Assembly: GCA_010093485.1 (NCBI GenBank)
Contig: MU001507.1
Location: 375,296-439,295, forward strand
Reading direction: 5' to 3'
Length of the DNA stretch: 64,000 nt
Source of the DNA: Karstenula rhodostoma CBS 690.94
Lineage: Eukaryota > Ascomycota > Dothideomycetes > Pleosporales > Didymosphaeriaceae
Shown here: one piece after another, positions 484 through 20,660 of the stretch
Layout: the number at the start of each line of letters is the position of its first letter
Numbering within the stretch: position 1 is the stretch's first letter
Translations under genes and position numbers: made by a program
Notes under the pieces: model-generated
Told to the model about the DNA's origin: nothing
Seen by the model: only the letters and a program-made list of their open reading frames with translations
Databases searched by the model: none

Positions 484-2430
484 ATGCCGTCAAGAAGGCC
501 TATCCGAATCGGCAATGCTTCTGGAGCGATTGGCGATGGGATAGATCAGGTGTAGGCCACCTACCAACGACCCAACAGAAAGTACACCTAACTGGCATTA
601 CAGCTACCGTCTTGCACGCGACGGAGATGTAGACGCCATAACAGCAGACTATCTCGCTGTAAGTAAATCTCGTCCAGATTTCCTACCGACATGACATGCT
701 GACCTTCCCCAAAGGAATTCAACATCGCCTGGAAAGCCATCGAGCTCACCACCCGCCCTGACCTAGGCTACGAGCCCAACTTCCTCGAGCAACTCGCCTG
801 GCAGGACGGCGCAGCAGCCAAGCTTCTCGCGCGCAAGAACATCAAAGTCGTCCACGACGGCGGAGCACTGAACCCCAAAGGCCTTGCGCAGAAGACAGAT
901 GAGTATTTGAAGAGTCTGGGAATTGAGGGGGTGAAAATTGCCTGGGTCGACGGCGACAATGTTACCGGGATGGTCAAGGAAGGAAAACTGGGCAAGCTGA
1001 TGCATCTCGACCAACGAGGCCTGGAATTGGGCGGACTCCGTCACAAGGTCCTCGCTGCGAATGTGTACACGGGGATGGCGGGCGTGATTGCTGCGCTGGA
1101 GGCGGGCGCCCAGATAGTGATTTGTGGGCGGTGTACGGATGCATCGCCGGTGATGGGGCTTGCGGCGTGGTGGCACGGGTGGAAGAGCACGGATTACCAG
1201 CAGTTGGCGGGGAGTTTGCTTGCGGGGCACATCATCGAGTGTGGTGGGTATGTGACCGGGGGTAACTTCTGCGGGTGGAGGGAAATCGAGAATCTGCACC
1301 ATGTTGGGTACCCGATCGCGGAGATCGCTGCGGATGGGACGTGTGTGATCACGAAGCCGGAGCATACGAATGGCGCGGTGACGGTGGATACGTGCAAGGC
1401 ACAGCTGCTGTACGAGATTCAGGGCCCGTTCTATCTCAATCCCGACGTCACGGCTCGCATCGACGGCGCGCAGCTCGAGCAGATTGGCAAGAACCGCGTC
1501 CGCCTCACCGGCATAGTAGGCGAGGCGCCGCCTCCCACGTCCAAGCTAGCTATCTGCCTCCTCGGGGGCTGGCAGGCCGAAGTCTGCGGCTACGCTGCGG
1601 GTCTGGACACCCGCGAGAAACTCGCCCTCATGAAAGATCAAGTCATGCGCGAGATCGACCCTGCGGACTTCTCAACATTCAGCATGGAGATCTACGGCAG
1701 CAGCCCGGACAATCCAAAGTCTCAGCAGGAATGCACAGTCACGCTACGCATGTTTGCGCAGAGCGAGGACAAAGACGCAATGCTCAAGTTCAAACGGGCC
1801 ATCTTCTACAACGGGATGCAAGGTTATTGCGGACTACACCTGGCGATGGACTGGAGAACCATGGAGCCGAAGCCGTATGTGCGGTATTTTCCGAGTCTGG
1901 TACCGAGCGTGGGTGTGCAGTTGACGGCAAGTTTTGTAGACGGGACGAGTGTCAGTGTGCAATCGAAGACGGAGGAAGAGTGTGCGGAGAAGGTTGCTGA
2001 GCAGCTAAACTACGATCCTGAAGCTCCGGTTTCTCTAGCCTTGTTTGGACCTACGGCGCGGAGACCGCTGGGAGATCTTGTTTTCGCGCGCTCGGGTGAC
2101 AAGGGTGGGAATGCGAATGTAGGCTTTTGGGTCAGGGAGCGTGCTGCGTGGCCGTGGCTTAGGAGTTTCCTAACGAGGGAGAAGTGCGTTGAGCTACTAG
2201 GGGATGACTGGAAAGACAAATACAGCGTAGAGAGATGTGAGTTTGAAGGGCTAATGGCGGTACATTTTGTTGTCAGGGGCCTATTACAAGAGGGGGTAAG
2301 TAGTAGCAGTGTGCTTGACGGGTTTGGGAAGAGTGTTGGGGAGTTTTTGAGGGCGAGACACGTGGATGTTCCGGTGGAATTGTTGACGGTGGAGGAGAGG
2401 CGGCGGGCTACGATGAAGGGGAAATTGTAG
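484..2430 (+). CDS. AtuA/DUF1446-family protein (paralogue 1)
   Basis: Exons 484-551, 604-658 and 715-2430 join in phase to give 612 aa. The two short 5' exons were recovered by hand. They read MPSRRPIRIGNASGAIGDG and then a segment ending DAITADYLA, which runs into EFNIAWKAIELTTRPDLGY; this is the usual AtuA N-terminus. Further family motifs are VVHDGGALNPKGL, CGRCTDASPVMGLAAWWHGW and YEIQGPFYLNPDVTA. A C-terminal ferredoxin-like AtuA-associated domain begins near GDLVFARSGDKGGNANVGFW. Bacterial AtuA belongs to the acyclic terpene (citronellol/geraniol) catabolic locus, but the biochemical role of the family is not settled. The protein ends in GKL, a weak PTS1-like tripeptide. It opens a cluster of acyl-CoA genes and has a second paralogue at 17.1 kb. 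Confidence 0.9.
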
Positions 2431-2739
2431 CAAGAACTACCTTTCGACGTCAGCGTCAAACGATTGACTACGACTACATACCATCGCTGTTGCACCAGCG
2501 GATCTACAATGACACTGCAATCAACGTCACGTGGTCGTGAACAGCCCGGCAAAAGCCGAGGTCGGATGTTCTACCCTGAACCGCTGCTCTTCTCCACACC
2601 GACATCCACTAGCGTGCATCGCGCCGCATGATCCTTGTCCGCCATGTACCTCTAGTATTTCCTATATTCTACGCTACCGTCCCGCAAAGATAAAACGGAC
2701 CAATCCACATTCCCCCACCAATTCACAACTCACGACAAC
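2431..2739. promoter_or_regulatory. Intergenic between two co-directional genes
   Basis: About 310 bp hold the 3' UTR of the AtuA-like gene and the promoter and 5' UTR of the MaoC-like gene. I see no ORF or clear motif beyond general pyrimidine richness before the ATG at 2740. Confidence 0.4.
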
Positions 2740-3780
2740 ATGGTAGCAGACAAAGACAAACCTATCAAGAGACCAGACGGCCGCTACGACAACGTCGACT
2801 TTACAAAAGCAGTCGGCTTCAAGCTGCCCACCGTAAAAGCAAGCTACCTGCGTCGCGATGTGCTCCTTTTTGTATGCCTGTCATCCAATTGCGACGTCGA
2901 GCAACAATACTAACCCATCCAGGCCAACGCAATAGGCTGCACCAAAGACGAGCTCCACTTCCTCTACGAACTGCACCCCAACTTCTCCTGCTTCCCCACC
3001 TTCCCCATCAACCTCCCCTTCAAGCAAACAGACCAGGATGTATTCGACTTCTTCGCGCGCGCGCTCGTCACCGACGTCCCCGGCGTGCCGCCCTTCGACC
3101 CGCAGCGCTCCGTCGACGGCGAGCGCGGCATCGAAATCTTACACCCCATCCCCGTGTCCAGCGCTGGCCTCGATCTCGAAGTAAGTCCGGAGATCGTCGG
3201 CGTGTACGACAAGGGTGGGAACATGATTCAGGAGATGGTGCAGAGCGTGGTGGATCGGGTGAGCGGGAAGGTGTTTGCGAGGCTGACGAGTAAGGCGTTT
3301 GGGATTGGGCAGGGGGGCTATGGGGGGCCGAGGGGGCCCAAGACGGTCGACTATACGCCCCCTGCGAGGAAGCCCGATGCTGTGCATGTGTTTCGGACGA
3401 CGCCTGAGACGACGCTGCTGTATCGGCTGTGCGGGGATTATAATCCTATACATGCGGATGATCAGTTTGCGGAGGAGGGGGGGTTCAAGGGTGCGTTTTT
3501 GCAGGGGCTGGGCACGTGGAATATTGCGGCTCATGGGGTGTTGAGGGAGTTGGGTGGGAGTGAGGCGGGGAGGTTGAGGAGCTTCAAGGCGAGGTTCGCG
3601 AAGATTGTGTATCCTGGGGATGCATTGGAGACGAGGATGTGGAAGGTGGGTGAGAAGACGGTCGATGGGAGGTTGCTGGATGAGGTTATCTTCCAGACTG
3701 TTGTGCAGGAAGACGGGCGAGTAGTGCTGAGCAATGGGTTCGTGGAGCTGTGGAAGAAGGGGTCGCAGAGTAAATTATAA
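2740..3780 (+). CDS. Peroxisomal MaoC-type enoyl-CoA hydratase 2
   Basis: Exons 2740-2871 and 2923-3780 join in phase 0 and encode 329 aa. The protein has the double hot-dog arrangement of hydratase 2 enzymes (the C-terminal part of fungal Fox2 and human HSD17B4). The N-terminal half is diverged. The C-terminal half carries the hydratase motif GDYNPIHADDQF, with the expected Asp and His, followed by GFKGAFLQGLGTWNIA. Such enzymes hydrate trans-2-enoyl-CoA to (3R)-hydroxyacyl-CoA. The protein ends in SKL, a textbook PTS1 signal, so it should act in the peroxisomal matrix. It is convergent with the crotonase gene at 3881, only 100 bp away. The length fits a stand-alone hydratase 2 without the dehydrogenase domains of Fox2. 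Confidence 0.92.
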
Positions 3781-3828
3781 ATATTCAACCTGCGATGCCT
3801 TCGCTTCAGGGCCCAAGGAGTCACCAAA

Positions 3829-3886
3829 GCGTCGTACTCATGCAGTATCATTTATAAGCGTCGTACTCAGGCAGTATCATCTATAA
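3829..3886. repeat. 29-bp tandem duplication over the 3' end of a crotonase gene
   Basis: Two adjacent 29-bp copies (3829-3857 and 3858-3886) each begin GCGTCGTACTCA and differ at two positions. The second copy overlaps the stop codon of the minus-strand hydratase at 3881. The pair fills half of the convergent spacer between two cluster genes. Confidence 0.85.
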
Positions 3887-4714
3887 CCGGCTGCCTTTCC
3901 ATATCGGCTTTCTCTTCTCACTAAACGCCTTCAGCCCCTCCTTAATATTATCCCCCTTCTGTAGCTCAGTCCACTCTCTATCCAGCACCAGTTCCACCGC
4001 CCTCTCCACGCTTGCAGTCTCCCACCCTTCTCTCAACCCCGCCCTCGTACATATGATAGCATCAGGACTATTTTCCGCCATCGCAGCCGCCAACCTCACG
4101 GCCTCCTCCACAACATCCTCTTTCTTCACGACCTTATTGACAATCCCCCACTCACGAGCCTTCTGCGCAGATATCGGCTCCCCCATCAGCGCAAACTCGC
4201 TCGCCCGCTGCAATCCCACCGTCCGTATCAGCCGCGGCAACGCACCCCCTATCGGCGCCACCCCCCTCTTTACTTCAGGCAGCCCAAACACCGCATCCTC
4301 GCTGGCAACCACCAAATCGCAGTTAATAACGAACTCGCACCCGCCGCCCATTGCAAGCCCATTGACAGCCGCAATGACAGGCTTCTTCCCCAGACGCCTG
4401 CTCAGCGGCGTAAACGCGGGCTTGTTCCCCATGCGTTTGCTGGGATCCGCGTCCGAGGCCATGCTGCCATTCCACTCCTTGAGGTCTGCGCCCGCGGAGA
4501 AAGCGCGGCCGGTGCCGGTGATGATGGCGACGCTGAGAGCGGGCTCCGCGTCGAGCCAGGCCCAGACCGAGTGCATTTCCCACTGGCCTGCGGTGGACAT
4601 GGCGTTGAGGGCTTTGGGACGGTCCATGCGGATGAGGAGAACGCGTGGGACGGGGAAGGAGAGTTTGAGGAAGGAGGGTGTTGGGGGTGGTGGGGTGGTT
4701 GTGGGGTAAGACAT
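3881..4714 (-). CDS. Peroxisomal enoyl-CoA hydratase/isomerase (crotonase, paralogue A)
   Basis: A single exon of 277 aa. Crotonase-fold features are in order: the oxyanion-hole segment GRAFSAGADLKEW near residues 67-79, then AVNGLAMGGGCEF, whose Glu sits where the first catalytic acid of enoyl-CoA hydratases lies, then FGLPEVKRGVAPIGGALPR, whose Glu fits the second. It should catalyse syn-hydration of 2-enoyl-CoA or a related isomerisation. It ends GSRL, an accepted PTS1 variant, so peroxisomal import is expected. Transcription diverges from the related hydratase starting at 5238, and the two could share a promoter. The exact substrate cannot be read from the sequence. Confidence 0.92.
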   Translation of the reverse strand: MSYPTTTPPPPTPSFLKLSFPVPRVLLIRMDRPKALNAMSTAGQWEMHSVWAWLDAEPALSVAIITGTGRAFSAGADLKEWNGSMASDADPSKRMGNKPAFTPLSRRLGKKPVIAAVNGLAMGGGCEFVINCDLVVASEDAVFGLPEVKRGVAPIGGALPRLIRTVGLQRASEFALMGEPISAQKAREWGIVNKVVKKEDVVEEAVRLAAAMAENSPDAIICTRAGLREGWETASVERAVELVLDREWTELQKGDNIKEGLKAFSEKRKPIWKGSRL

Positions 4715-5237
4715 TTTGGAGGGTCAGTCTGAAAGGAGGAGGGAACGGTAGAGGTGCGACTTTGACAGTTACTTTTCCTTTCGCAAAACGGGGGATGGGA
4801 AGCCAATTCGTGGTTCCTGTGGTCGCGGAGTGAAAGTGTGGCGAGTCAGGGAGCTGTCCGTTCACCTCGGCATGTGGAGCTGCTTGACTCGGTAGCATGC
4901 GCAACCTGATGAATCATTGATTGTCAGACGCGTCGCTAGCACGCGGGTAACAGAGTACGAGGTTGATACCGGAAACCCCATGGGGCCGTTGCCACAGCGG
5001 ACCGCAATGGACCACAGTGGACCGCTACTGGATACATGCAGGGCGCCGATGATTCAGCGTGGGGAGCCTCGGCAGGTACGACCCGAGCAACTTCTCGCAA
5101 CGCGTCCAGTTTCCGTTGCGGACCCTACAACCTTGTTGGCCTTGTGCTGATTCAAACTGTCTATCGCGGCATCATCCGCGCCTTCCATCGCGACGCCCGG
5201 TTTGCATGTCCCTCCGGTAGCAACCCAGATCGCCAAC
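4715..5237. promoter_or_regulatory. Shared divergent promoter of two enoyl-CoA hydratase genes
   Basis: 523 bp separate the start codons of two head-to-head crotonase genes. Several CGG/CCG triplets occur, including an inverted CCG-N3-CGG at 5113-5121, which is the layout bound by some Zn2Cys6 dimers. The phrase GGACC(G/A) recurs three times around 4999-5027. No experimental support is implied. Confidence 0.35.
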
Positions 5238-6149
5238 ATGACGACTCCCCGCACAAAGAATCCCATGCCTGACTGGATAGAATCACCACACCCCCACGTC
5301 CAGCATTCCCTCATCACGTTCCCAGCGAAACACATCCTCCAAGTGACAATCAACCGCCCGGAGGCGCGCAACTGCCTCCCGGTAGAGGGCACCATCGAGC
5401 TCGGCGCGTTATGGAAATGGTACGACGCAGAGCCCGAGCTGCGCGTGGCAGTCTTCACTGGGGCCGGCGACAAGGCTTTCTGTGCAGGCATGGACTTGAA
5501 GCAGCGGTTCGACATCCTGGACACGGGCGACATCGCGCATGATTATCCTCCAGGGCAGTTTGCCGGGATGAGCAATCGGGCGGGGAAGAAGCCAATTATC
5601 GTGGCATGTAATGGACATGCGCATGGTAAGGAGTCCCGATGTACGTGTTGTAAGGAGCGAAACAGGTCTGACAAAGTGCTTCCAGGCGGCGGCTTCGAAG
5701 CCATCCTCAACGCCGACGTAATCTTCGCCTCGCCCAATGCGACCTTCGCCCTCCCCGAAGTCCTCCGCGGCGTCTCCGCCCTCGCCGGCGCCCTGCCGCG
5801 CGTCTTCCTCCTCTTCGGCAACCACCGCGCCATGGACCTGATACTCACCGGCCGCCGGCTGTCTGTCGAGGAAGCGCACGCATGGGGTCTCGTCAAGGAA
5901 ATCGTGCCGCAGGAACAATTGCTGGAAAAGACGCTGGAGTACGCAAAGCTGATTGCGTCTCTAAGTCCCGACAGTGTTATCATCAGTCGACTGGCGGCGA
6001 GGGAGGCGTGGGAGTCGGGAGTCAGTCGCGCGACGATGAGAGGGCAGGAGTTGTGGGCGGAGAACATGCTGAGGAGTGAGAATGCGAGGGAGGGGCTGCA
6101 GGCGTATAAAGAGAAGAGGGAGCCGAGATGGAAGAGGAGCCATTTGTAG
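5238..6149 (+). CDS. Peroxisomal enoyl-CoA hydratase/isomerase (crotonase, paralogue B)
   Basis: Exons 5238-5625 and 5686-6149 give 283 aa. The start at 5238 (context AAC ATG) is preferred over an in-frame ATG 12 codons upstream, though either is possible. The 60-nt intron is a multiple of three and has no in-frame stop. It was recognised because removing it restores ACNGHAHGGGFEAILNADV, the crotonase active-site loop. Other motifs are GDKAFCAGMDLKQRF and FALPEVLRGVSALAGALPR. The C-terminus is SHL, a PTS1 variant. With the divergent paralogue A this gives two crotonases beside a hydratase 2, suggesting successive or stereochemically distinct hydration steps. Confidence 0.9.
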   Translation: MTTPRTKNPMPDWIESPHPHVQHSLITFPAKHILQVTINRPEARNCLPVEGTIELGALWKWYDAEPELRVAVFTGAGDKAFCAGMDLKQRFDILDTGDIAHDYPPGQFAGMSNRAGKKPIIVACNGHAHGKESRCTCCKERNRSDKVLPGGGFEAILNADVIFASPNATFALPEVLRGVSALAGALPRVFLLFGNHRAMDLILTGRRLSVEEAHAWGLVKEIVPQEQLLEKTLEYAKLIASLSPDSVIISRLAAREAWESGVSRATMRGQELWAENMLRSENAREGLQAYKEKREPRWKRSHL

Positions 6150-6295
6150 AGATGGGGAGACAACAATGTTACGAAGTTGAACGAAAACATACAGAGCCAT
6201 GCCCTGATTGATATTGTTTGGGGACTGTCTCATTCAAACTTGGGTGCATGTTGTAATATCGTTTGATCTTTACGGTATGCGATTAATCCTCAATG

Positions 6296-8172
6296 CTATA
6301 GCCGACCCGTTCTCTCTCGCGCAAGCCGAGCTGGTAGTAACCGACGAAGCACCTTTCCATTCCCTGACTTGGGAATCTCGTCCAGTACGACAACCCCTCC
6401 GCGAAGCTTCTTATACGCCGCAACTCTCGAATCAACATGCCGTCGTATATCCGCCACCATCGCATCCCTATCCTGCCCCTCAGCCTTCGCCTCCGCAGTC
6501 AGCGCAACATACGCAATGGGCACTTCCGTTCCCTGAGCATCGTCCCACAACGCACAAACCGCGCCCTCACTCACACACGGGTGCGAGTTGAGATGCGCCT
6601 CGAGTTCCGCCGGGGGCACCTGGTTCCTGCGGCAACGTCAGCGCGCTCCGCATAGGACTCTTCAACCATACCCTTTGTACTTGATAAGCTCCTTCTTCCT
6701 CTCGGTAAGCCACCAATACCCCTCCCCATCCACCCTCACCACATCCCCGGTCCGCATCCACGCCCCCTCAAACGCCCCCCTCGTAGCCTCCTCATCCCGC
6801 ATGTAGCGTCGGAATACACTCGCCCCCCGCACTAGCATCTCACCCTGTGCGCCCTCCGCCACATCCCTGCCCTCGTCGTCTACAACGCGTGCTTCGAGCC
6901 CTGCAAACAGTTTCCCCACCGACCCCACGCGGTGCGCAGATGCGGGCTTCAGCATCGTGATGTTCGTCTCCGTCATGCCGTAGCCCTGGAAGATGGGCGC
7001 GTGGGGGAGGTGTGTGCGGAAGTGCTGGATGGTGGGCGTGGGCAGGACGGCACCGGTGCACATGATGTACTTGACGGTGTGGAGGCGCGAGAGGTCGAAG
7101 GCGGTTTGTTTGGCGATTTGGACGGCGATGGTGGGGAGGATGCGGAGGGCGGTGGCGCGGATCTGGGCGGACAGCGAGAGGTACGAGGGCAGGGTGTAGG
7201 TTTTCTGGAGCATGGTGTAGAGGCCTGTCCAGGTGCCCATGAGGACTACGGTGACGAGGCCTAGATGGGGTGGGCTTGTAAGCACGCTGTGTAGACGCCG
7301 TGTGGGATGCTGGTGGACCTGCCGTAGATGTGACATAGGGGTGCAAAGAACACGCCGCGAACGCTGGCAGACCAGTAGGAAGGCTCGGTCGCTCGGATGC
7401 TGAGCATCGAGGCTACGAGGTTGTAGTGCGATAGCTCGACGCCTTTTGCTTTGCCACTTGTGCCTGAACTGAAACATACGACGGCTGTGTGTTCCCTACT
7501 ATCTCTTTGCGACAAGTCAAATGCCGGAAGTGAAGCCTCCTGGTCGAAGAGCGCATCCGCAGAGAGGCTCTTATCAAAGGGTGACTGGGCGCCGTGCAAG
7601 GAAATGGTATGCAGTGCGGTCAGGTTCAGCCTCTTCGCTGCACCGAACAGAGTCGGCCAAGTATCTGCATCAGCGGCCAACACCTTCGGCCGCGACAGCT
7701 CCAAGCAATGCGCGACTTCGTACTCTGTGCTCAGCGGGTTGACCAATCTAGCACGCATCAATACCCAAAACGCAAAGGATACGATCCGTGTAACCTCTTA
7801 CGCAGCGATCCCTCCACACCACAGCACGGCGTGTATCAACTTGACGGTCTCAACCTTCGCTCCCCATCAGCGCCAAACCCCTGCAGTGTTTACTCATCGC
7901 GGAGATATTTCTCGTACCGAGTTCGGCGCACATATGCACACCACGTCGCCCTCATTTATGCCGACAAAGTGCCGCAACGCATACGCACCCCTCGCGCTCT
8001 GCTCTGCAATCCCAGCATACGTAATCCTCCCCCCGGTCCAATCATCTTCGCAAATGACCTTGTCGCCCTCGACGTCGTCCGGGTTGTATTTTTGCAGCAA
8101 TTGCGAAACAGCGAGGTTCAGTGGGACTTGCGGGGCCGGGTACGGCGACTTGTAGATGACGGGAGACGGCAT
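6296..8172 (-). CDS. 4-coumarate-CoA-ligase-like acyl-CoA synthetase (AMP-binding)
   Basis: Five exons read from high to low coordinate: 8172-7918, 7854-7802, 7747-7323, 7260-6672 and 6626-6296. Together they encode 550 aa. ANL-superfamily motifs are in order: CFSSGTSGKAKGVELSH (phosphate loop), PLCHIYG, GYGMTETN, WMRTGDVVRVDGEGYWWL, ERKKELIKYKGNQVPPAELE and IPKSGNGKVLRR with the C-terminal adenylation Lys. The enzyme should activate a carboxylic acid to its CoA thioester via an acyl-AMP. The third intron is called as GC..AG because only that junction keeps PLCHIYGLVTVVLMG in frame. The C-terminus GRL is PTS1-like but weak. It lies directly beside the hydratases, so it plausibly supplies their CoA substrate. 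Confidence 0.88.
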
Positions 8173-8851: not shown

Positions 8852-8915
8852 GGATCCACGTCGCGGGCAGGCCTCTAAGTAATCGCGGGCAGGCCTGTAA
8901 CTAAATCTAGTTAAG
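8852..8915 (+). repeat. Left terminal inverted repeat (64 bp)
   Basis: Begins GGATCCACGTCGCGGGCAGG and ends CTAGTTAAG. It matches the reverse complement of 12256-12319 at 61 of 64 positions, and all three differences are transitions. It contains its own direct repeat: CGCGGGCAGGCCT occurs at 8862 and again at 8884, a 22-bp period. Confidence 0.92.
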
Positions 8916-9314
8916 TATATATAGAAAGTCCTATAGGCTAAAGTACTATATAGATAAACTATATTATAGTATAATTTATTATAGGTATATAATATTTTTT
9001 AATAATAAAACTATTATAATATTATTAAAAACTTAATAGAATAAATTTAATTAGGTAAAAGTCTAGCTATATAGGAAAGTTCTATAATATATATATATAT
9101 AAGTATAGAGGTAATCTATATATAAAATTAATTTTTACTAAACTTTAAGGAATTATTTACTTATAGTATTATTTATTTTAAGTTAATTTTTATTAATTTT
9201 TATATAATATATAGTATATAGGTAGAGATATTAGTATATATTAAATTATAAATAATTACTACTTATAAAAGCTCTTTTATATATATATTAATATTATTAT
9301 ATATTACTTATAGA

Positions 9315-9460
9315 TACTATATTAGTTATTTAGAAGTAATCTAATTATAGGCTAATAATACCTATAAATATTATATTAACTATCTAAAAATAGCCTAATT
9401 ATAGGCTAATAATATCTATAAGTATTATATTAACTATCTAAAAGTATAGTAATTATAAAT
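9315..9460. repeat. About 54-bp tandem repeat inside the degraded element
   Basis: Roughly 2.7 imperfect copies, each with the core AATTATAGGCTAATAATA followed by CTATAA and a TATATTA(G/A) phrase. It may be a relic of a repeat in the original transposon or a later slippage product in the A+T-rich DNA. Confidence 0.6.
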
Positions 9461-12255
9461 TATTATTTACTAATAAGCTCCTATATATTAAGTAAAAATT
9501 ATATTACTAGTTAAATTACTAGTTAAATTACTAGTTATATTATTTAGATATCTATATTACTTAAATTTATAACTTATTTATATAATACTTATATCTAATA
9601 TTACTAAATTAATTTATAAGGAACTATAAGAATTTTTAATATTAGTTATTAGTTTATAGATACTTATATTAATACCTCTAATAAATAATTATTATTAAGA
9701 TACTTAACTAATATAGGCTTATATTTAATACTCTAAATTAGGTATTTTATATATTAAATAATAGACTTAAATATATATTTAGTAAGTAGTATATAGGAAT
9801 TCTATATATATAATATCTACTAATATATATTAAAATTAATAGCTTAGAGACTTATTAATTTATAGTCTTTCTTTATTATTATATAGTTATAAAATATATT
9901 TATTATAGCTTACTAAAAGCCTCTATAATAAAATAAAATATATTTTATATTTTTAACTTTCTTTATATATCTATATATAAGTATTAGTTATTAATATATA
10001 AGTATAATTATATAATTAGTAATATAATTCTATATAGCTTTAAATATAAAATTTAATATTTAATAGATAATTTTATTAGTAATAATATTATTAGTAAGTT
10101 AGTAAATATTATTCTAATTCTTATAAAAACTTATAAGGTATTTATATAGGTATAAAAAATTATTATTAATAATATCTAGCTATTACTTAATATAGGTATA
10201 TATACCTTTAATTTTTAATATTACTATTAATTTATAGTATAAATAATAATTTATATAATAGCTAAGTAAAATATTTATATAGTTATTTAGCTAGATTTTA
10301 TATAGATATTACTCTATATATAGGGATATAAATTTAATACTTTAATAATAATTTTTAAAAACCTTAGTAATCTCTATATTAAGTATTTAATAGTATATTT
10401 TTATAAAGTTCTTAGTTTTTAATATATTAATTTAATTAGTACTATTATAATATTAGCTAAGCTTTTTTATATATATAATATATATATAAGCTTATACTAA
10501 CTTATTTATATACTATTAGTAGAGTAAGTATAGAATATTTAGAAAACTTAATATAATAGTATTAATAGTAGTAAGGTTTTTATTTATAATAATAATTTTT
10601 AGCTAGATTTTAAACTTATTAAATAGTTTTTTTAGCTAGCTAAAAATAAAATTATAGGCTTTTTTATTATATATTAATATAAGGTATATACTAAAATATA
10701 TTATATAGTTACTATTATTAAAACTAATAATATTAAATAGTAGTTAGTTATATTTATTTATTTTAAAGGTATAATTAATAAAAAGAATATTTAGTATTTA
10801 TATAAAGGCTTACTAGTAATATAAATAAATAAAAAGGAGATAAGTAATATAATTATTAGTATTAAATTTATATTTAGGAAACTATAAATAGAAATTCTAG
10901 TATTAAAAGTCTAACTAAAATAGAATAATACTAGTTAAAAATAATAATATACTAATTATACTAGATACTAGTTTTAAACTTTAAATAGATATATTAAACT
11001 TAAAGAAATCTAGTATATAACTTACTTAAAAAAATATTTTTTTTTTACTAATTTTTTCTTTAATAGCTCTATTTTTATTTTTAATTATAACTTTTTATAT
11101 TTATATTATAAGTATAGATTATATATATTATTATATATTAACTAGATATCTAGAAAGTTATAGTATAGTATTACTATAATACTATATATATTAGTAATAG
11201 AGGTACTAAAATATATAATTATCTTTTATTTAATATTCTTATTTTACTACTTATTTTTATATTTAGAGTATATATATATATCCTTATATAGTAAGTAATT
11301 ATATAATAAAGATTATTACTTATATTTCTAACCCTCTATATATAAAATTCTCTACTCTAAAGTTTTTAAATTAAGTATATTTATAGTAATAATATATAAT
11401 ATATATAAGTAGCTATATTTTTAGAACTTTATATTAAGTTTTTAATAATTCTCTTTTTTAATATATTTATACTTACTATATTATAAGTACTATATTTTAT
11501 ATTTATATTACTTACTAGTAATATTTTTATATTACTTAGTTTTTTTATATATAATTTAATACTTATAGCTTTAATTATTTAAAAATTTAATTATTATTAA
11601 TAGTAATAGTAATACTACTTTAAATACTAATTTATAAGTATATAGAGGTCCTTTATATATATAGAGACTAGTATAATTAATATTACTATATATAATTAGA
11701 TTTTTAAACTTATATTAATATAATATATAGGTACTTATTATATAAATAATATAATATTACTATTAAATAACTTTTAAAAATCCCTTAATAGATTTCTTAC
11801 TACTAGAATTATTTATAGTATTACTAATATTAATATTATAAGATATCTTATATTCTTTTATATACTTATTAATAATATTATTATTAGAATTAAATATAAA
11901 AGATATAGGTATTTAAGTTATAAATATATAAAATATTAAGTTCTATATTAATTTTATTAGTAATAAAGTACTATTATTAATATTAAGGATATTAAAAATA
12001 GAGTTTAATATAATTATAACTAAGTTTTTATATAAAATAAATATATAATTAATTAAATTAATAAAGAGTAATAGCTAGTATTAGTAATAGAGAGTAATAG
12101 ATATAATATATAATATATAATATTAGCTAAAATACTAATACTAAGAATTTATATATTAAGTAATATAGTAGCTTAATTATTAAAAAAAATCTTTTTTTTA
12201 TAGTAATTTACTTTATAGAGTAGTATTTTAAAATAGTTCCTTAGCCTATATAAAA

Positions 12256-12319
12256 CTTAACTAGATTTAGTTATAGGCCTACCCGCAATTACTTAGAGGC
12301 CTGCCCGCGACGTGGATCC
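12256..12319 (-). repeat. Right terminal inverted repeat (64 bp)
   Basis: Reverse complement of the left end. The three differences from the left copy are transitions, all changes toward A or T on this side, consistent with RIP acting on the right end. Confidence 0.92.
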
Positions 12320-12328
12320 CCTGTTGAC
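12320..12328 (+). repeat. Target-site duplication, right copy
   Basis: CCTGTTGAC, identical to 8843-8851. Confidence 0.93.
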
Positions 12329-12651
12329 ACGCCTAGGTGCAGCCAGGAAGAGGATGAGGAAGAGGAATGGCCCACATCGCTCCCCGAACGCCACCTTCAG
12401 ACAAGCATTTCCTAGCGCCTGTAAGATACGACGTAGGAGCCGAGACTGCTAATTCACGCCCGAAGCGACCTTCCTCTTCCTCCTTAATCTGGCTGCCGCA
12501 CCAGGCCAGTGGAGAGGGCCTGCAGCTAGAAGTTACCCTGGACTACGCTACCCTTGACTATACCTTGCTCAGTCCGCGGTTCTTTGAGCCTCAATCCTCG
12601 CCCATTTTCTCCTCCAGACTCTTCACCCCTCTTCGTTGTCACCACGTCACG
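12329..12651. promoter_or_regulatory. Right half of the split divergent promoter, MFS 5' region
   Basis: 323 bp between the transposon and the chosen MFS start. An ATG at 12367 opens a frame that stays open into the MFS coding sequence, which would add 95 residues. That extension is rich in Pro, Ser and Thr and lacks membrane segments, so I treat it as 5' UTR. Confidence 0.45.
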
Positions 12652-14771
12652 ATGGAGCGCAGATCTTCTGAAGAGCAGCGAGCCAAGGAGGACCATGTTG
12701 TCGAAGAGTACGCGTCCACGTCTTCCGTCTCGGACGCCCTCTCCGTCAAAGATGCCGCTCGAGGCGACAACCTACCCGACAACTACTTTCTGAGCGTCGC
12801 CTTTATCGGGACCGTCGCCGGCCTCTGTCTGGGACAGATCGCAGCGTACATATTCCTGATTTTGCCCACAAACATACTCCCTTTTATCAACGCCGTAAGA
12901 TACACTTTCCCTCTGGACGATTTACATGCTCAAAATCCACTAGGACATCGGTCCAAGCCAGAATCTAGCATGGATCAGCATCGCCAGGACACTGGTGGAG
13001 AGCACCATGTTTTTGGTCGCTGGACGCCTGAGCGATCTGTTTGGCCGTCGATGGTTCTTTATTGGCGGTAATATCGTTTGTCTGATCGGTCTCATCGTCG
13101 GCGCATGCGCAAAGAACGTCAACACGCTGATAGTCGCGTCTGCGGTGTACGGTTTGGGAGAATGCATCCAGCTGAGCTTCGGTGTGGCTATCGGAGAACT
13201 CGTGAAGAACAAGCATAGGCCTGTGGTCGTAAGTATCTCTCTGACCGAATAAGTCGCGCTAAGCTGACCATCATAGATGTCCTTCATCTTCGCGACCTCA
13301 GCTCCAATCGCCACGTTCGGCCCCAAGATTGCGAGAGCTTTCGTCCAGAACCCGTCTCTGGGGTGGCGCTGGACATACTACCTGAGTAGGTCACCACCTT
13401 CCTGTGCTAGCATATTTCGTCGAAGCTGATCATGTTAGATATCATCGTTGTCAGCGTGGCCATCATTCTTCTTTTCTTCTGCTACCACCCACCGAACTTC
13501 GAGCTACTCCACGAGCACAAGTCGAAGAAGCAGCAATTGAAAGAGCTCGACTATATAGGCATGTTCTTGTGGACTGCGGGACTCGTACTCTTTCTTATCG
13601 GTATCTCTTGGGTGAGTCTTACGCATCCTGTTGAAACGTTCTGAACTGATGAGAGTAGGGAGGCAGTATCTACCCGTGGAAGTCAGCATCAGTCATTTGC
13701 GCGATCGTTATTGGCGTTGCTTGTCTTATTGCTTTCGGCTTCTGGGGGGCTTATGGGAATCCAAAGTACCCCTTGATGCCCATGAAATTCTTCAAAAACC
13801 GAGGCTTTATTTCGCTCGTAGCTTGCGCTACAAGTAAGGGACATCCCCCAATTTGCGACCTGGGTTCTGACAAGTAATAGTTGCGTCCATGTTCTACTAC
13901 TCTGCGGTCTTGCTCTGGCCACAGCAAGTCTCCGTCATGTACACCGCCGATGTCGACTATGCCGGCTGGTTATCCGTAAGTCACTGAGCTTGGAATTGCC
14001 ATTGCAAGCTAAAGTATCTTCAGTGCACCGTATCCGCAGCCACTGCACTCGGACAAATCTCTGCTGGTGGCTTGATCAAGGTGTTCGGCAACACGCGATA
14101 CTGGCTCATTGTCTCTGCCTTCGGCATGGTCGCCTTCGTCTCATCGTGCGCTTCATTGACCCCCGCAACTAAAAACATGGGCATCGCTTTCACCATAATC
14201 GGACCCTTCTTCGTCGGCTTCATCGAGCTCGCAGCGCTTTCTCTTGCTCCGCTGTTCTGCAAGGGCGAAGAAATCGGTGTATCGTCGGGCATGCTTGCAT
14301 CTATTCGTGCGGCCGGTCAGTATCCCACACCACTATTCACTGCACATGGCTGACTGTTCAGGTGGCTCAATCGCGGTCACTGTCTACACCACCATCCTAA
14401 CCAACCGCCTCGCAACGACCATGCCAGCTGTCGTCGGCGGCGCTGCAACCGCCGCAGGCCTGTCAGCCTCCGATGTCCCCGCCATGCTCGCAGCTGTAAC
14501 CGCAGGGACCGTCGCGGAAGCCCCTGGCATCACGGACTCGATACTTGCCGCTATCAACGCGGCTGTACCTACCGCTTACAGCCAAGCCTTCAAGACCGTA
14601 TACCTCGCCTCCTTGGGCTTTGGAGGCATCGCTATCATTGGAAGTCTGCTGACTGTCGATCCTGAGAAGCACCTTACAGATAAGGTCGAGCGGCGTCTGC
14701 ATGGGATGGGGGTCAAGGACCCAGTCGAGGGGCAAATTGTAGAGACACACCAAAAAGTGGCTGAGGCTTGA
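12652..14771 (+). CDS. MFS transporter of the TRI12-like family
   Basis: Eight exons: 12652-12894, 12944-13228, 13277-13385, 13439-13611, 13659-13833, 13881-13975, 14024-14315 and 14362-14771. All phases agree, giving 593 aa. The sequence shows an acidic-polar N-terminus, then about 14 hydrophobic segments. It has the MFS loop motif GRLSDLFGRRWFFIGG, a TRI12-type ATSAPIATFGPKIARAF, and GWRWTYYLN. The fungal TRI12/siderophore branch of the drug:H+ antiporters exports small metabolites or takes up siderophores at the plasma membrane. In this context it could move the substrate or product of the adjoining acyl-CoA genes, but the substrate is unknown. It is divergent from the acyl-CoA synthetase. 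Confidence 0.9.
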
Positions 14772-15510
14772 GGATGGGGTTGACCATCTTGAAAAATTGT
14801 ACATATGAGCTGCGTTCGAGCACTTGCGCTTTTGGGATATGAATTGTATATATGGTCTGATGAGAAGGGTTTTGTGTCTACGACTGCTGCACGCATAGAT
14901 GGACAGGGTTATGAAAATCCCACTAGCCTTATACATTGGCGTTATGACGAGAATATATCTGCAGAGCTGTCACTACGTACACAACGCAATACTCACTCGA
15001 ATCTTTGCTAAATCCCTTCAGTTAAGAATCGTGATTATCATCAGTGTTACACATCCATTATTGGTCAGTCATCCTTGCTGTCTTTCCCAGCCAGTTTCAG
15101 GGCCACGAGACACCATGCGTCGTGTGGTACCGTAGAGCTACTAACAAGCAATCTAACTAGATCTCAAGGCAAGGCTCAAAAGTAGGTTGAAAAATAGTTC
15201 TAGCTTATGTTATCAGTGCAAGCTACCAAAGTAAGTGAGCCAGGAGGTGCAGAACTCCACGGTATTGCAGTCCCGCCGGGTATTGTCAGCCTCGTCTCTG
15301 CACGCCCCCCACACCATGTGGCGGCACGAGCTAGACTAGCCTCGGTACACCCGTCTCGCATACTTTCCATTGCAGCTTCATTCCTACGTATCTCGGTTGC
15401 ACACTGTGAGTCCCGTAAAAATTTCTTCCTAGAAATCATTCCGTCGAACGGCCTCGAATCGTAGAGGTTATTTATTTGTTTACTCTCGTCTTCCGCTAAA
15501 CCAATCCACC
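14772..15510. other. Intergenic
   Basis: 739 bp between the MFS gene and the ABM-fold gene on the same strand. Only small unsupported open frames are present. I see no RNA gene or repeat. Confidence 0.4.
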
Positions 15511-16267
15511 ATGCCGAATCTCGTGGTCATCGCCAAGTTACCCTTCGCGAGCAGTGCTGCTAAAGACACGGTAAAGCAAATAGAAAGGCTAAAGGTGTAA
15601 CACTGACACGATACAGGCGCTAGAAAAGCTAGCCCGGATCGCGCAGTTCGCAAAGGAAAACGAGCCCGACACCCTTACGTACTTCATCTCGTCGTCGCGA
15701 GACGAAGCAGACGCCAATGCACTTTACGTAGTAGAAGAGTGCGTTGCAGCATCTCTACAGGGGATCTACACACGCTGATATGATATGTATAGGTACACCT
15801 CGCGAGCAGCATTCGATGCGCACATGTCCATCGACCCGGTGAAAGACATGGTGAACTGGCTGGCTTCGAACCCGGGAAACATCGACGGCGAAGCCACCGT
15901 CTCCATGTCGGAAACTCACGCTTCCTTCACCAGGCCCGACGTCCTCGGGGCGGCTGATCCGTGGATCTGCTATGCTTCTATTGAGTATAAAGAGGGGAAG
16001 CGCGCGGAGGCGTTGGAGCCTTGGAAATATGTCGCGTCTGAGACGGAGAAGAACGAGGCTGGGACGCTGAGCTATAGTATCCTGAAAGATGAGGGACAAC
16101 CGGAGACGGTTAGGACGGTCGAGGTTTATAAGAGTCAGGCGTATTTCAAGGAGGTGCATGTGCCGAGTAGGGCGGTGCAGGAGAATGCGAAGAGGTATGG
16201 GGAGGGGATTAGGGTTTCTGTGAGGCATGTGTTTTTGGAATATTGGACGGGGTATTTTGGTAGGTAG
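15511..16267 (+). CDS. Two-domain ABM-fold (antibiotic biosynthesis monooxygenase-like) protein
   Basis: Exons 15511-15570, 15617-15738 and 15793-16267 join in phase and give 218 aa. The first half (PNLVVIAKLPF, then DTLTYFISSSRDE, ALYVVEEYTSRAAFDAHM) is a classic dimeric alpha+beta ABM unit. The second half (WICYASIEYKEGKRAEALEPW, then SYSILKD, VYKSQAYFKEVH) looks like a second, diverged unit. Members include cofactor-free monooxygenases, heme-degrading enzymes and proteins of unknown role. The catalytic chemistry cannot be inferred. The last 29 codons are duplicated just beyond the stop codon (see the repeat at 16182-16347). Its position inside the cluster suggests a tailoring step. Confidence 0.82.
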
Positions 16268-16347
16268 GAGTTTGCGAAGAAGCATGGGAATGAGATTGGG
16301 GTTTCTGTGAGGCATGTGTTCTGGAAATATCGGACGGGGTATTTGAT
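16182..16347 (+). repeat. 87-bp tandem duplication spanning the ABM gene stop codon
   Basis: Copy A (about 16182-16260) encodes the C-terminal end with VSVRHVFLEYWTGYF. Copy B starts 87 bp (29 codons) later and, read in the same frame after the TAG at 16265, gives IGVSVRHVFWKYRTGYL. The phrase GGGTTTCTGTGAGGCATGTG is identical, or nearly so, in both copies. Confidence 0.85.
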
Positions 16348-17081
16348 GTTTGGGGAGATAGACATGCGGTTAGGATGCAATAGAGTGTATGGTTCAATAC
16401 AGCAGAGCCCATCTGGGACTTCACGCTGTCGATAATCAGCCATCGGGCAATGCCTGTGATGCTTCATCTCCTTTGTTCGCAGGCTCAATCGTTTGCAGCG
16501 CAATCTATGCCCATGTTACGCGTCCCTGCATGCGTGTCAAAGCACGTAATTTGCTAACCGTACGATTGTCTGCATCCATCTTCATATCTAGAGGGGAGGG
16601 GCAAGCGATGGTCATAGGACCGAGAACGAGGGGGGTAGCTCCAAGCTAACGCACCGTGAATCATTAGCACGAACACAGCCGAGATGCACGAATGATTCAG
16701 CACGAGTTGCTGTCGCCTCAAGGCGCATCTCAGTAGCGCATCTCTTTGGGTCGTCGGAAATGTTTTGCATCCGCGCTGATCTCGAGGCCTTGCCTTGTGT
16801 AGGATGTCCGATATCCCCGGTCTCGTCAAACAGCCGGTGTGGTTCTCCAATCAGTCTCTAAGACGCTATGCAAGGCTTCTGCGGGGGTGAATGCTCGGTG
16901 GTACGATTTGTTATTGATCCTTGCGAGGGTGTTGGCGTTATGGTAGGTAGGATGGTGGTTGGTTATGTCCGTACTTATACCCCGCCCTCTACCGCGTTCC
17001 GACATCTTTCCAGTTCTCTCACCGCTGCACGCGTATTTTTTGTTGTTGTTTTACAAGTGATACCTGCTTCCAGCGTTCAAG
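16348..17081. other. Intergenic
   Basis: About 730 bp with no supported gene. It carries the promoter of the second AtuA-like gene. A pyrimidine-rich stretch precedes the ATG at 17082. Confidence 0.4.
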
Positions 17082-19230
17082 ATGGCTCCTCCAGTCGAGA
17101 ATGGTGTCAACGCCTCGGTTACGAATGGTGTCAACGCCTCGGTTACGAATGGGACGAATGGCGCCAGTGGCTCTCAGAAGAGACCCATCTACGTCGCAGG
17201 ATGCTCCGGAGGAGTGTACGATAGGAAACGAGCCATCGAAGACATGGCGAAGGTATGTTACGCCTGAACACCGCGACTGCAGGGGTTGCTGATTACCATA
17301 GAATGAACCACATGTCGATGTAATCACCGGTGACTGGATGTCAGAATGCAACATGACGCTCCGAGGATCAGACAAGAGGGACAAGCTCGCAAAAAAGCAA
17401 CTTTCTGCCGTTGGAGCGGCCTACGAGCCATACTTCCTCGAGGAAGTCGATCCCGCCATCCCGTGGCTCGCGAAGAATAAGACAAAGATCTGCGTGAATG
17501 CCGGGGCAAGCGATGTCGAGGGTCTCGCCAACGAGGTGAAGAAGCTGGTCGCTAAGCACGGCGTCGATTTGAAGGTCGCCTACGTCGATGGTGATGATTG
17601 CACAGATGCTGCTCTGGAACTTTACCGCAAGGGCGAGAATTTTCCCAATCTCCCCGCTGGAAAGAACATCCAGGACTGGCCTTTTGAACCGATATGCGCT
17701 CAGTGCTATCTTGGTGCCACGGGTATTGCGACTTGCTTTGCCGGTAAGTCTTTTCCACCTGCTTCCGTGAACGTATCCTGACAGACGTCTAGCTGGTGCG
17801 GACATCGTGGTTTGTGGTCGCGTGGCTGATGCTTCTCCTACCGTCGGTGCCGCAATGTGGTGGCATGGCTGGACGCGTGAGGACAACATTCAAGAGGTTG
17901 CTTCAGCATTGATGGTTGGCCACGTTATCGAATGCTCGACATACGCTACAGGCGGGTATTACAGCGGCTTCAAGGATCTCGGTGTCAAAGATACTGATAT
18001 GGGTTATCCCATTGCTGCCATAGAAGCCAATGGTGAGGCGGTTTACACCATGGAGAAGGTATGTCAGCCACAATTATTACCTCTTCTGGATGAATTCTGA
18101 CCTTGTTTTCAGGGCAAGCATGGCTTGATTAACATCCAAACAATCGCCAGTCAGCTACTCTACGAGATTCAAGGACCCTACTACTACAACTCCGACGTTA
18201 CCGCGCAGATTGAGAATGTCAAGCTCGAACAAGTCGGCGAGAACGCTGTGCGAATGTCTGGGATCAAGGGTTATCCTGCTCCTCCGACGACCAAAGTTGG
18301 AATCACAGCTAAGGGCGGTTACCAGGCCGAATTCCACTTCTATCTCACAGGCCTGGATATCGAAGAGAAAGCCAAAATGATAGAGAGGCAAACACTGGCG
18401 GCCATGGGCGACTACGCCAAGGAGTTTTCCTGCCTGAAGTTTCAACTCGCGGGCGCTGTACCCGAAAACCCTCAGTCGCAGAACGAGGCTACGGTTGATT
18501 TTCGGATTTTTGCCCAGACCCAGAATGCTGATCTCCTCTCCGCTGGTGCCATGATCGATTCTGATCGGGGCTCGTTCGCGCGCTTCTGTATAGAAAACCT
18601 CCTGCAGGTAGGGAACAAAGAGACTCAAAGGCTTCCGCATAACTGACGAGCATGCAGGGCTACCCCGGGTCCACCATGGCGCCCGACATGCGGACCGCAA
18701 TGGGTCGGCCCTTTTTTGAATATTGGGTCAGCCTGATGCCTCAAGAATTTGTAAAGGAGCAGGCTCACCTCCCCGACGGGACTGTGGTCGACATCCCGTC
18801 TCCAACGGTGACGCAAGAATACGACTTTAACCAGCCCTCATACAATACGCGAAACCCCGTCGATCTTGCTTCCTTCGGACCAACGACTCGTGCACCCCTC
18901 GGCTACGTTGCGATGGGCCGATCCGGCGACAAATCATCCAATTGCAACCTTGGGCTCTTTGTCCGGCATGCAGATGAGTTCGATTGGTTGCGCACGCTCC
19001 TCAGCGTTGAGAAGATTCGTGAGCTTCTTGGGAAGGACGACCAGGGTAAGAATATTGACCGATGCGAGATGCCCAATATCTATGCTGTGCATTTCTTGCT
19101 TCGAGACCACCTTGACCGCGGATTCAATGCCACAAGTGGATTCGATAGCTTAGGCAAGAATCTCTGCGAGTACATCAGGTGTAAGTTCGTCGACATTCCG
19201 AATAAGTTCTTGGAGCGTGGTCGTGTTTGA
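17082..19230 (+). CDS. AtuA/DUF1446-family protein (paralogue 2)
   Basis: Five exons (17082-17252, 17302-17743, 17793-18058, 18113-18607, 18658-19230) encode 648 aa. Family landmarks are VAGCSGGVYDRKRAIEDMAK, VITGDWMSECNMTLRGSDKR, KICVNAGASDVEGLA, CGRVADASPTVGAAMWWHGW, LLYEIQGPYYYNSDVTA and the C-terminal module GYVAMGRSGDKSSNCNLGLF. It is clearly paralogous to the gene at 484 but diverged throughout, so this is not a recent duplication. The N-terminus carries an Asn/Val-rich repeat (NGVNASVT twice) encoded by a 24-bp minisatellite. The C-terminus RGRV has no PTS1 form, so it may be cytosolic, unlike its neighbours. It may act at a different step or in a complex with paralogue 1. Confidence 0.9.
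17099..17146 (+). repeat. 24-bp in-frame minisatellite
   Basis: The unit AATGGTGTCAACGCCTCGGT-TACG (24 bp) occurs twice without change, followed by a partial third copy (AATGGGACGAATGG). It encodes NGVNASVT repeats at the N-terminus of the second AtuA-like protein. Confidence 0.85.
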
Positions 19231-19577
19231 GCGAGATAAGATTGCATGGTCTACGTATCGGCGGTGCATTGCTAGGCGTTTCCAAATATTTCAAGCACAT
19301 CAATAGCATGCCCATAAACTTGCTGTGACTTTGATCGTACTGTTGGGATCCTAAGATCATCACGTGGTGGGGTGGCACGCGCCCCTTAATATACGCCAAT
19401 CACATACCCGTCCGCTGCCTTAGGAGCGGAGGAGCGGGGCTCCTTCCCGGAAGCCGTCTCCCCCAGCTTTCTCCACCTCCGACCACTCTTCCATGCCATA
19501 CCTTCATCCATCCTGACTTTGTCGATGAGCTAGAAACTCCGCGGGCGCGCTTCGCAGGCGTTACGCTTGTAAATTGC
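19231..19577. promoter_or_regulatory. Intergenic, promoter of the bZIP gene
   Basis: 347 bp with no supported ORF. A TATA-like TTAATATACG occurs at about 19387. Nothing else stands out. Confidence 0.35.
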
Positions 19578-20660
19578 ATGATCGCAACTTCCCCTGGTGA
19601 GAAAATGGCATCGACTTCACCGTGGGATACAACATCGCCCGCGAGTGGAGGCCAGCGTACGTCGCAGGATTCTGAGAACCTGGAGAAAAAAAGAGCGAGA
19701 GATAGAAAGAGCCAGAAAGCGATGCGCGAGAGAACCAAATGGAACATTCAATGTCTTACCCAACAAGTCGAACAATTGCAACGCGCACTCGATATCGAGA
19801 CGCGTGAGAAGAGCGACTTGTACAACAAATTCCTTGCCATGTCCGAGGAGAATGACCACTTGCGCGTGCAGAAAGCAGCGCTACAGTTGCGGCTTCTTGG
19901 AAATGGACAGTCGCCGCCGAATAGTGCGTCGTCGCCTACAGGTCTTGCGCCATACGAGACCATTCCGATAAATACTACTCCCACGTGCATGTCGGATCAG
20001 ATCTTGCAAACGTTTGTCGAGAGAAGATGGGAAGCTTACGCTTTCCAAACGGCCGGACGTCTTGAGTACTACCCCGACAAGCCTGATCTTAGCGCTCTGT
20101 TCGATGGCCGGCCAAATCGCCAGGTAGACGAGACGAGTTCGATTGTTGGCGACATTGTCAGGAGCTACACAGAAATTGATACGTTGCCCAAGAAGGTGGC
20201 AGTGCACTACCTCATGAGTACGCTCCTGAAGTGGGAGGTGTTGAGGACCAAAGCCAGCTACCAGGCTATGCCGGAGTGGCTGCGTCCAGAGCAGGTCCAG
20301 CTGGAACGGCCGCATGCAAGCTGGATCGACCGGATACCATGGTTCGTTCGCCTGCTTCCTCTGCGTCGTAGCTAACCCGACCAAAGGCCCAAGATTCGGG
20401 CGTATCTGATCAACCACCCCGAGGTGAAGTTTGATGACTTCGCCTCCGCCTACAGCGTCTCATTTAACATAACGTGGGACTACGATCCGAATCATGTCAT
20501 CTTGACTACCGCGAACGATGAGCATGGCAGCATACTGATCAACCCCATCTACGAAGAGCACTTGAGGCAGCTCAAGAACTGGACTGTTGGAGACAACTTC
20601 CGACGCAAGTTTCCTGAGATGACGGAAATCATTGAGGGCTATGCCAAAAACGAGAAGTAG
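19578..20660 (+). CDS. bZIP transcription factor with DUF3425 C-terminal domain
   Basis: Exons 19578-20341 and 20387-20660 encode 345 aa. An alternative in-frame start lies nine codons downstream (MASTSPW). The basic region is EKKRARDRKSQKAMRERTK. A leucine-zipper-like heptad follows (QCLTQQVEQLQRAL, then LYNKFLAMSEENDHLRVQ). The second half, from ILQTFVERRWEAY to YAKNEK, matches DUF3425, the domain paired with this bZIP type in filamentous fungi; MPEWLRPEQVQLERPHASWI and IPWPKIRAYLI are characteristic. The 45-nt intron has a slightly unusual GTTCGT donor. As the last gene on the right side of the cluster it is a natural candidate for pathway-specific regulator, which is an inference from position. 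Confidence 0.87.

Follow-up and report, generated by a model that had tools for sequence, protein, structure and literature searches.

Citramalate lyase CmlA/CmlB (PDB entries 9erq and 9evf) is a two-subunit enzyme, and the PDB names CmlA itself an AtuA family protein. The Pseudomonas atu operon and the AtuA operons of actinobacteria group AtuA with an acyl-coenzyme A (CoA) synthetase (AMP-ligase) and a crotonase, and they also comprise a carboxylase pair and an acyl-CoA dehydrogenase. Feruloyl-CoA synthetase and enoyl-CoA hydratase/aldolase bring about ligation, hydration and retro-aldol cleavage without any oxidation, one crotonase both hydrating and cleaving. The SidI-SidH-SidF module contains a peroxisomal ligase and the crotonase SidH, which serves siderophore synthesis in the peroxisome and, according to the accessible part of PMC3709128, acts on a beta-methyl acyl-CoA. 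Here we describe a gene cluster built around two AtuA proteins, AtuA1 and AtuA2, in a stretch of 64,000 nt from the fungus Karstenula rhodostoma CBS 690.94 (the window, i.e. positions 375296-439295 of contig C16 of the 44.3 Mb genome). With a probability of roughly 0.4, it is a conserved fungal cluster for a short, self-contained and mainly peroxisomal acyl-CoA pathway, in which a ligase, a hydratase and a retro-aldol lyase would act.

The locus differs from each of these systems. The predicted fold of relatives of its AtuA proteins is that of the large chain of CmlA/CmlB; in contrast to the two-subunit enzyme, AtuA1 and AtuA2 are fungal, each consist of one chain (612 or 648 amino acids (aa)) that includes the ferredoxin-like domain, and are 13-17% identical to CmlA, and AtuA1 has a tail resembling a peroxisomal targeting signal type 1 (PTS1). 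The cluster shares the grouping of AMP-ligase, crotonase and AtuA with the atu operons. Unlike them, it has neither the carboxylase pair nor the acyl-CoA dehydrogenase, and it adds two AtuA proteins, a hydratase 2, an ABM-fold protein, an exporter of the major facilitator superfamily (MFS) and a DUF3425 regulator. A peroxisomal ligase and a SidH-type crotonase are common to the cluster and the SidI-SidH-SidF module, whereas no SidF-type acyltransferase is nearby, the crotonase ECH1 is about 50% identical to SidH, and AtuA proteins are present. In comparison with the feruloyl-CoA system, a separate protein of the AtuA fold would perform the cleavage, and the substrate would be beta-branched.

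No published description of this cluster was found in literature listings and accessible passages, i.e. outside subscription papers. The accessible part of PMC12148953 (2025) names two proteins of Phacidium infestans as putative AtuA proteins, with terpene uptake, transport and detoxification as guessed roles, and that of PMC5371717 contains one DUF1446 gene in an expression table of A. nidulans. In the literature accessible to this extent, no tested function of a fungal AtuA (DUF1446) protein was found. The cluster provides the family with a defined fungal setting, and the predicted citramalate-lyase fold would offer a concrete reaction class for it.

Ten genes form the cluster

A preliminary description, made from the letters alone, had assigned nine neighbouring genes at 484-20660 to enzyme, transport and regulator families and read them as one coherent set. 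Gene identities and coherence are both borne out. The spliced models yield intact proteins with agreeing Pfam families, and all 22 introns are of the GT...AG type and 44-69 nt long. AtuA1 and AtuA2 each contain PF07287 and PF23544 in one chain, above the curated cut-offs. The MaoC hydratase 2 has PF22622 and PF01575, each of the two crotonases (ECH1 and ECH2) PF00378, the AMP-ligase at 6296-8172 PF00501 and PF13193, the MFS exporter PF06609, the ABM-fold protein PF03992 in two stretches, and the regulator PF11905. For the latter, no bZIP Pfam match was obtained at E 0.001, and a bZIP-like basic region was recognised by eye. MaoC hydratase 2 carries the pattern YRLCGDYNPIHADDQFA, which we take to be the hydratase-2 motif. 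The AMP-ligase signatures were found by pattern in the AMP-ligase, and ECH1 and ECH2 have Glu at both crotonase positions; presumably these are the catalytic signatures and the crotonase active site, respectively.

The set gains a tenth gene. A second AMP-ligase with an AMP-binding and a C-terminal domain, 33% identical to the AMP-ligase of the window, is encoded directly to the left; its start codon lies 115 nt left of the window and 598 nt from that of AtuA1. The rest of the 10 kb left flank contained no related gene, as judged by eye and by tblastn. The right edge of the cluster was drawn by eye and placed where the window shows no more matches to AtuA, crotonase or MaoC beyond it. The cluster comprises ten genes over about 22 kb, including three divergent pairs (AMP-ligase 2/AtuA1, ECH1/ECH2 and AMP-ligase/MFS).

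Genome-wide, a manual tally of exon pieces gave about eight clear and two weaker loci for AtuA and about 15 for crotonases, besides four MaoC matches; all these counts are lower bounds. From these hand-made counts, a rough Poisson calculation puts the chance that two crotonases fall within 22.5 kb of any one AtuA at 1e-4, with the other genes uncounted. The clustering of the genes exceeds chance. A third AtuA gene is located on the same contig (C16:796500-808000); it is 51-59% identical to AtuA2 by pieces and has a TRI12-like MFS gene (36-40%) about 3 kb off.

Conservation in other fungi

The conservation searches covered AtuA1, AtuA2 and ECH1, with the best 120 relatives of each; ECH2, the exporter, the ABM-fold protein and the regulator lay outside them. 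Because the lists hold the best 120 relatives, an absent partner means little. Contigs were matched by their lengths; on this basis the AtuA1 list and 119 ECH1 rows have 34 contigs in common, 16 of which are 500 kb or shorter; very long shared contigs are weak evidence of adjacency. AtuA1 and AtuA2 relatives share eight contigs, not counting a ninth that was dropped (5133630 of Paraphaeosphaeria sporulosa), where the partner is a paralogue with 55% identity.

Locus tags were read by eye, and AtuA2 pairs below 66% identity were excluded as paralogues. In all ten pairable species, i.e. Neonectria ditissima, Neonectria magnoliae, Fusarium zealandicum, Thyridium curvatum, Sarocladium strictum, Colletotrichum jinshuiense, Elasticomyces elasticus, Verticillium albo-atrum, Sporothrix bragantina and Trichothecium roseum, the genes for AtuA1 and ECH1 are 1-5 tags apart. 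The distance between AtuA1 and AtuA2 is 2-8 tags in five of six species (V. albo-atrum, N. punicea, N. ditissima, Neoarthrinium moseri and Microdochium bolleyi, the tags of the last being perhaps non-positional), and the two are separated in F. zealandicum (tags 1610 vs 9455). In Paraconiothyrium brasiliense, ECH1 lies four tags from AtuA2. Some predicted proteins run neighbouring genes together: AtuA1 and MaoC in Neoarthrinium (P0088) and Colletotrichum (P0107), and AtuA1 and an AMP-ligase, 52% identical to that of the window, in Cudoniella (P0103). Tags and run-together proteins therefore link AtuA1 and ECH1 firmly well beyond the genus and AtuA2 fairly, while MaoC and the AMP-ligase are linked in single cases. 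The conserved co-occurrence on which the preliminary description had made its common pathway depend was found for AtuA1 and ECH1 and, less often, for AtuA2, both on shared contigs and by locus tags.

One AtuA2 relative of Neoarthrinium moseri, P0144, is a predicted fusion of a TauD-type dioxygenase and AtuA2. This suggests that a TauD-type dioxygenase gene adjoins AtuA2 in that species; Pfam revealed none among the cluster genes of the window.

Relatives and predicted fold of the AtuA proteins

The nearest named relative of AtuA1 is from Paraphaeosphaeria sporulosa (94% identical; the relative P0001 is 94% identical), and that of AtuA2 is from Paraconiothyrium brasiliense (95%). At E <= 0.001, at least 5892 and at least 4124 relatives were obtained in the AtuA1 and AtuA2 searches, respectively. 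In a FastTree phylogeny of 100 sampled AtuA-family sequences with midpoint root, the AtuA1 proteins form one clade (support 1.0), the AtuA2 proteins another (0.996, including one row that had been labelled a paralogue), and every fungal sequence in the sample falls into a single group (1.0).

AlphaFold models were used for the fold comparison, i.e. those of P0001 and of the AtuA2 relative P0121. For both, the sole significant solved fold is citramalate lyase CmlA. CmlA (chain A) aligns to residues 3-451 of P0001, and the match spans most of the chain of both proteins. CmlB (chain B) was matched at E 0.023 and 0.033, with probabilities of 1.00 and 0.99, and may correspond to the C-terminal ferredoxin-like domain. 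In a sequence profile search, in which the aligned stretch contains a GRxxD and an EC motif, the E value for CmlA was an insignificant 0.17, and therefore the fold alone ties the AtuA proteins to CmlA.

Crotonases, ligases and peroxisomal tails

Among solved structures, both crotonases have SidH as their best relative (7oeq; about 50% identity for ECH1 and 43% for ECH2). The best 120 relatives of ECH1 are 71-92% identical to it, and because of the difference from the value for SidH, ECH1 looks like a member of a distinct SidH-like group. Two sources call ECH1 relatives sidH, and none of the crotonase loci fetched from the same genome is nearer to SidH than ECH1. The solved relatives of ECH1 include p-hydroxycinnamoyl-CoA hydratase/lyase, and those nearest to the AMP-ligase are long-chain acyl and 4-coumarate ligases. 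For the ABM-fold protein, no solved relative below E 0.18 was found. A third SidH-like crotonase gene is present on the same contig (C16:291863-292741), about 83 kb from the window; its product is 44% identical to ECH1 and 39% to SidH.

The preliminary description had envisaged a largely peroxisomal setting, and the C-terminal tails agree with it (SKL for MaoC, SRL for ECH1, SHL for ECH2). A canonical PTS1 was found in 118 of the best 120 relatives of ECH1 and in 43 of the best 120 of AtuA1, and 89 of the latter 120 have a PTS1-like end, x[KRH][LM]; these counts use the proteins as predicted, some of which have wrong ends. Among the 42 closest AtuA2 relatives (P0121-P0162) none has a PTS1-like tail. 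The tails of MaoC, ECH2 and the AMP-ligase are known from the window alone. On the simplest reading of these tails, AtuA1 would be peroxisomal and AtuA2 would not.

Carboxylases and dehydrogenases in the genome

A geranyl-CoA-type carboxylase step had also been part of the pathway first envisaged, and this part found no support. The carboxyl-transferase family (PF01039) has seven matches in the genome, at three loci (on contigs C17, C18 and C21), and none on C16. Acyl-CoA dehydrogenase (PF00441) has ten matches, the one on C16 being 1.2 Mb from the cluster, and the family search of the genome gave no match to acyl-CoA oxidase (PF01756) or thiolase (PF00108) near the cluster. Since carboxylase, dehydrogenase, oxidase and thiolase are all missing nearby, the carboxylase-based scheme of acyclic-terpene breakdown is unsupported. 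Two of the three carboxylase loci were compared with two carboxylases of bacterial AtuA operons; identities are about 50% for C17 and 27-29% for C18. The N-terminus of the C17 carboxylase looks mitochondrial by eye.

At C17:648228-656720, about 6 kb separate an AtuA paralogue and the beta gene of a methylcrotonyl-type carboxylase, and by eye an SKL-ended short-chain dehydrogenase-like frame is situated between them. This pairing is bacterial-like, elsewhere in the same genome.

Proposed pathway

From the gene content, the clustering, its partial conservation, the predicted folds of AtuA relatives and the tails, we infer reactions, an order and a substrate class as follows. The AMP-ligase (one of two, with that outside the window) would attach CoA to an alpha,beta-unsaturated acid with a beta branch. 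ECH1 and ECH2, being of the SidH type, would hydrate the beta-branched double bond to a tertiary 3-hydroxyacyl-CoA, and MaoC hydratase 2 would perhaps do so as well, with opposite stereochemistry. AtuA1 would then cleave the tertiary alcohol in a retro-aldol reaction, yielding a ketone or 3-oxo product and acetate or acetyl-CoA, and AtuA2, without a peroxisomal tail, might cleave a second intermediate, or a cytosolic one, in the same manner. The MFS exporter, the ABM-fold protein and the DUF3425 regulator would be accessories. Tentatively, an acid that brings its alpha,beta double bond and beta branch with it could be processed completely by ligase, hydratases and a putative C-C lyase.

If this chemistry is true, it would show a way for moulds to cleave beta-branched acids without a biotin carboxylase, and it would suggest a reason for keeping together two AtuA proteins with different tails. 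A more specific version, to which we assign a rather low likelihood, is a carboxylase-free bypass of the beta-methyl branch, in which a peroxisomal SidH-type crotonase would turn a beta-methyl enoyl-CoA into a 3-hydroxy-3-methylacyl-CoA and AtuA1 would directly produce a methyl ketone and acetyl-CoA from it, without biotin enzyme, oxidation or thiolase. It would represent a new route of isoprenoid acid breakdown in moulds, with the second AtuA cleaving a related substrate outside the peroxisome.

Several observations weigh against the self-contained pathway. The tails of AtuA1 (GKL) and of the AMP-ligase (GRL) are weak forms of PTS1. The tie to CmlA is insignificant in sequence, and a shared predicted fold does not prove a shared reaction. 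Entry 9evf was solved with ADP and pyruvate, and a nucleotide may therefore be needed, which the scheme does not explain and which, if true, would bear on the entire AtuA family. According to the accessible part of a review (PMC4097962), the lyase step of the Atu pathway is assigned to LiuE and not to AtuA. Known acetate-lyase reactions require a free carboxymethyl group, and no gene of the cluster would install one. Some crotonases are hydratase/lyases, so that AtuA need not be the cleaving enzyme, and SidH may lead the crotonase matches through a scarcity of fungal peroxisomal crotonases in the PDB. The ABM-fold protein is without a role in the scheme. A search of seven promoter stretches for exact words of 7-10 bases and for 4+4 palindromes (spacers 0-8) revealed none that is shared by more than four stretches. 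Lastly, in a survey of bacterial AtuA loci (at least 80 loci from 590 AtuA relatives), a carboxylase-beta match was found at 48 of the 80 loci listed and at 33 of the 52 whose flanks reach 6 kb or more on each side.

Alternative explanations

The alternatives are considered in order of decreasing probability. The cluster might serve the biosynthesis of a short beta-branched acyl unit, like the anhydromevalonyl-CoA that SidI/SidH/SidF provide for siderophores, and ECH1 could be the SidH of the host; we regard this as unlikely. The closeness of both crotonases to SidH and the sidH names of some ECH1 relatives fit this explanation, and MFS exporters and DUF3425 regulators of this kind resemble those of secondary-metabolite clusters. 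The identity of ECH1 to SidH is, however, far below that within the ECH1 group, which suggests a paralogue; both matches to the SidF-type family (PF13523) are on contig C3 and none is on C16. No synthase, non-ribosomal peptide synthetase (NRPS) or acyltransferase family is represented among the ten genes, nor did Pfam reveal a core synthase (polyketide synthase, NRPS or terpene cyclase) in the nine genes or the added AMP-ligase, and the genes for a specialised metabolite are not usually conserved so widely. In its plain form, as siderophore synthesis with SidH, the explanation is countered by this difference in identity, by the lack of a SidF gene nearby and by the tightness of the ECH1 group. 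We retain it as an alternative because the fetched crotonase loci include no better SidH candidate.

Quite unlikely, in our estimate, is the catabolism of branched C5/C6 diacids (itaconate, mesaconate, citramalate, 3-methylglutaconate or 3-hydroxy-3-methylglutarate (HMG)), in which MaoC or a crotonase would convert the ligase product to a citramalyl- or HMG-type CoA and AtuA would be the lyase. Citramalate lyase being the only significant solved fold argues for it, as does a DUF1446 gene found in a methylaspartate-mesaconate context; MaoC proteins as well as crotonases are found among the hydratases of itaconyl-CoA and mesaconyl-CoA. The nearest solved relatives of the AMP-ligase are, however, the long-chain acyl and 4-coumarate ligases, the MaoC protein is of the peroxisomal hydratase-2 type, and two AtuA clades seem excessive for one C5 acid.

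Improbable, too, is acyclic-terpene catabolism of the Atu type, with a carboxylase encoded elsewhere, crotonases hydrating a glutaconyl-CoA, and AtuA releasing acetate before beta-oxidation. Ligase, crotonase and AtuA are indeed members of bacterial operons with a carboxylase pair: in five of six annotated plasmid AtuA regions, the pair occurs with enoyl-CoA hydratase, acyl-CoA dehydrogenase and an AMP-binding protein or CoA ligase, while the sixth has none of them annotated. The listed bacterial loci with carboxylase-beta and the AtuA paralogue beside the C17 carboxylase also favour this scheme. The absence of carboxyl-transferase matches from C16 and of a dehydrogenase match near the cluster speaks against it, and the close carboxylase looks mitochondrial whereas several cluster enzymes have peroxisomal tails. 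The bacterial loci are not uniform either. The first ten (L054-L063, two of which have little DNA on one side) are all without carboxylase-beta, as are 19 of the 52 with sufficient flanks, and a crotonase match and an AMP-ligase match were each found at six of these 19. At E 1e-10, tblastn with the fungal MaoC protein matched none of the 80 bacterial loci; annotated MaoC genes are present near AtuA in Mycolicibacterium chubuense. As a guide to the substrate, the bacterial neighbours yield no single pathway.

That AtuA1 and AtuA2 are not lyases, carrying out some other, possibly nucleotide-dependent acyl reaction in a set of genes kept together for regulation, is very improbable: the ADP in 9evf, the insignificant sequence similarity to CmlA and the assignment to LiuE would fit, whereas the fold match over most of the chain of both proteins and lyase annotations in two bacterial pathways do not.

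Features of the window

The self-contained pathway does not involve the transposon that lies between the AMP-ligase and MFS genes (Table 1). The element comprises 3468 nt, its inverted repeats are 95% complementary, and its GC content is 14.4%, with 4 CpA instead of 96 expected and 3 TpG instead of 117. It is an insertion strongly mutated by repeat-induced point mutation (RIP), and it parts the AMP-ligase from the MFS promoter, splitting both the cluster and this divergent pair.

Table 1. Genes of the cluster and the inserted element. Positions refer to the window unless a locus is named.
Feature	Position	Strand	Properties
AtuA1	484..2430	+	612 aa; exons 484-551, 604-658, 715-2430; tail GKL (PTS1-like); C-terminal ferredoxin-like domain
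MaoC / MFE-2 hydratase 2	2740..3780	+	329 aa; two exons; tail SKL
Crotonase ECH1	3881..4714	-	277 aa; single exon; tail SRL
Crotonase ECH2	5238..6149	+	283 aa; two exons; tail SHL
AMP-ligase (acyl-CoA synthetase)	6296..8172	-	554 aa; five exons; tail GRL
RIP-degraded transposon	8852..12319		65-nt terminal inverted repeats; 9-bp target duplication
TRI12-type MFS exporter	12652..14771	+	593 aa; eight exons
ABM-fold protein	15511..16267	+	218 aa; three exons; two ABM-like stretches
AtuA2	17082..19230	+	648 aa; five exons; tail GRV (no PTS1)
DUF3425 transcription regulator	19605..20660	+	336 aa; two exons
Second AMP-ligase	L021:8191-9885 (left flank, directly left of the window)	divergent from AtuA1	564 aa; single exon; tail VKL

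Two further loci of the window lie to the right of the cluster. At 47390-51163 on the minus strand, one frame contains HET and NACHT domains and the next a run of very similar ankyrin repeats; together they are probably one allorecognition gene of the NOD-like receptor (NLR) type with an intron. A DFP-family protein with a partial match is encoded at 60156-61295 on the plus strand, and we assume that it is possibly the phosphopantothenoylcysteine synthetase of CoA synthesis.

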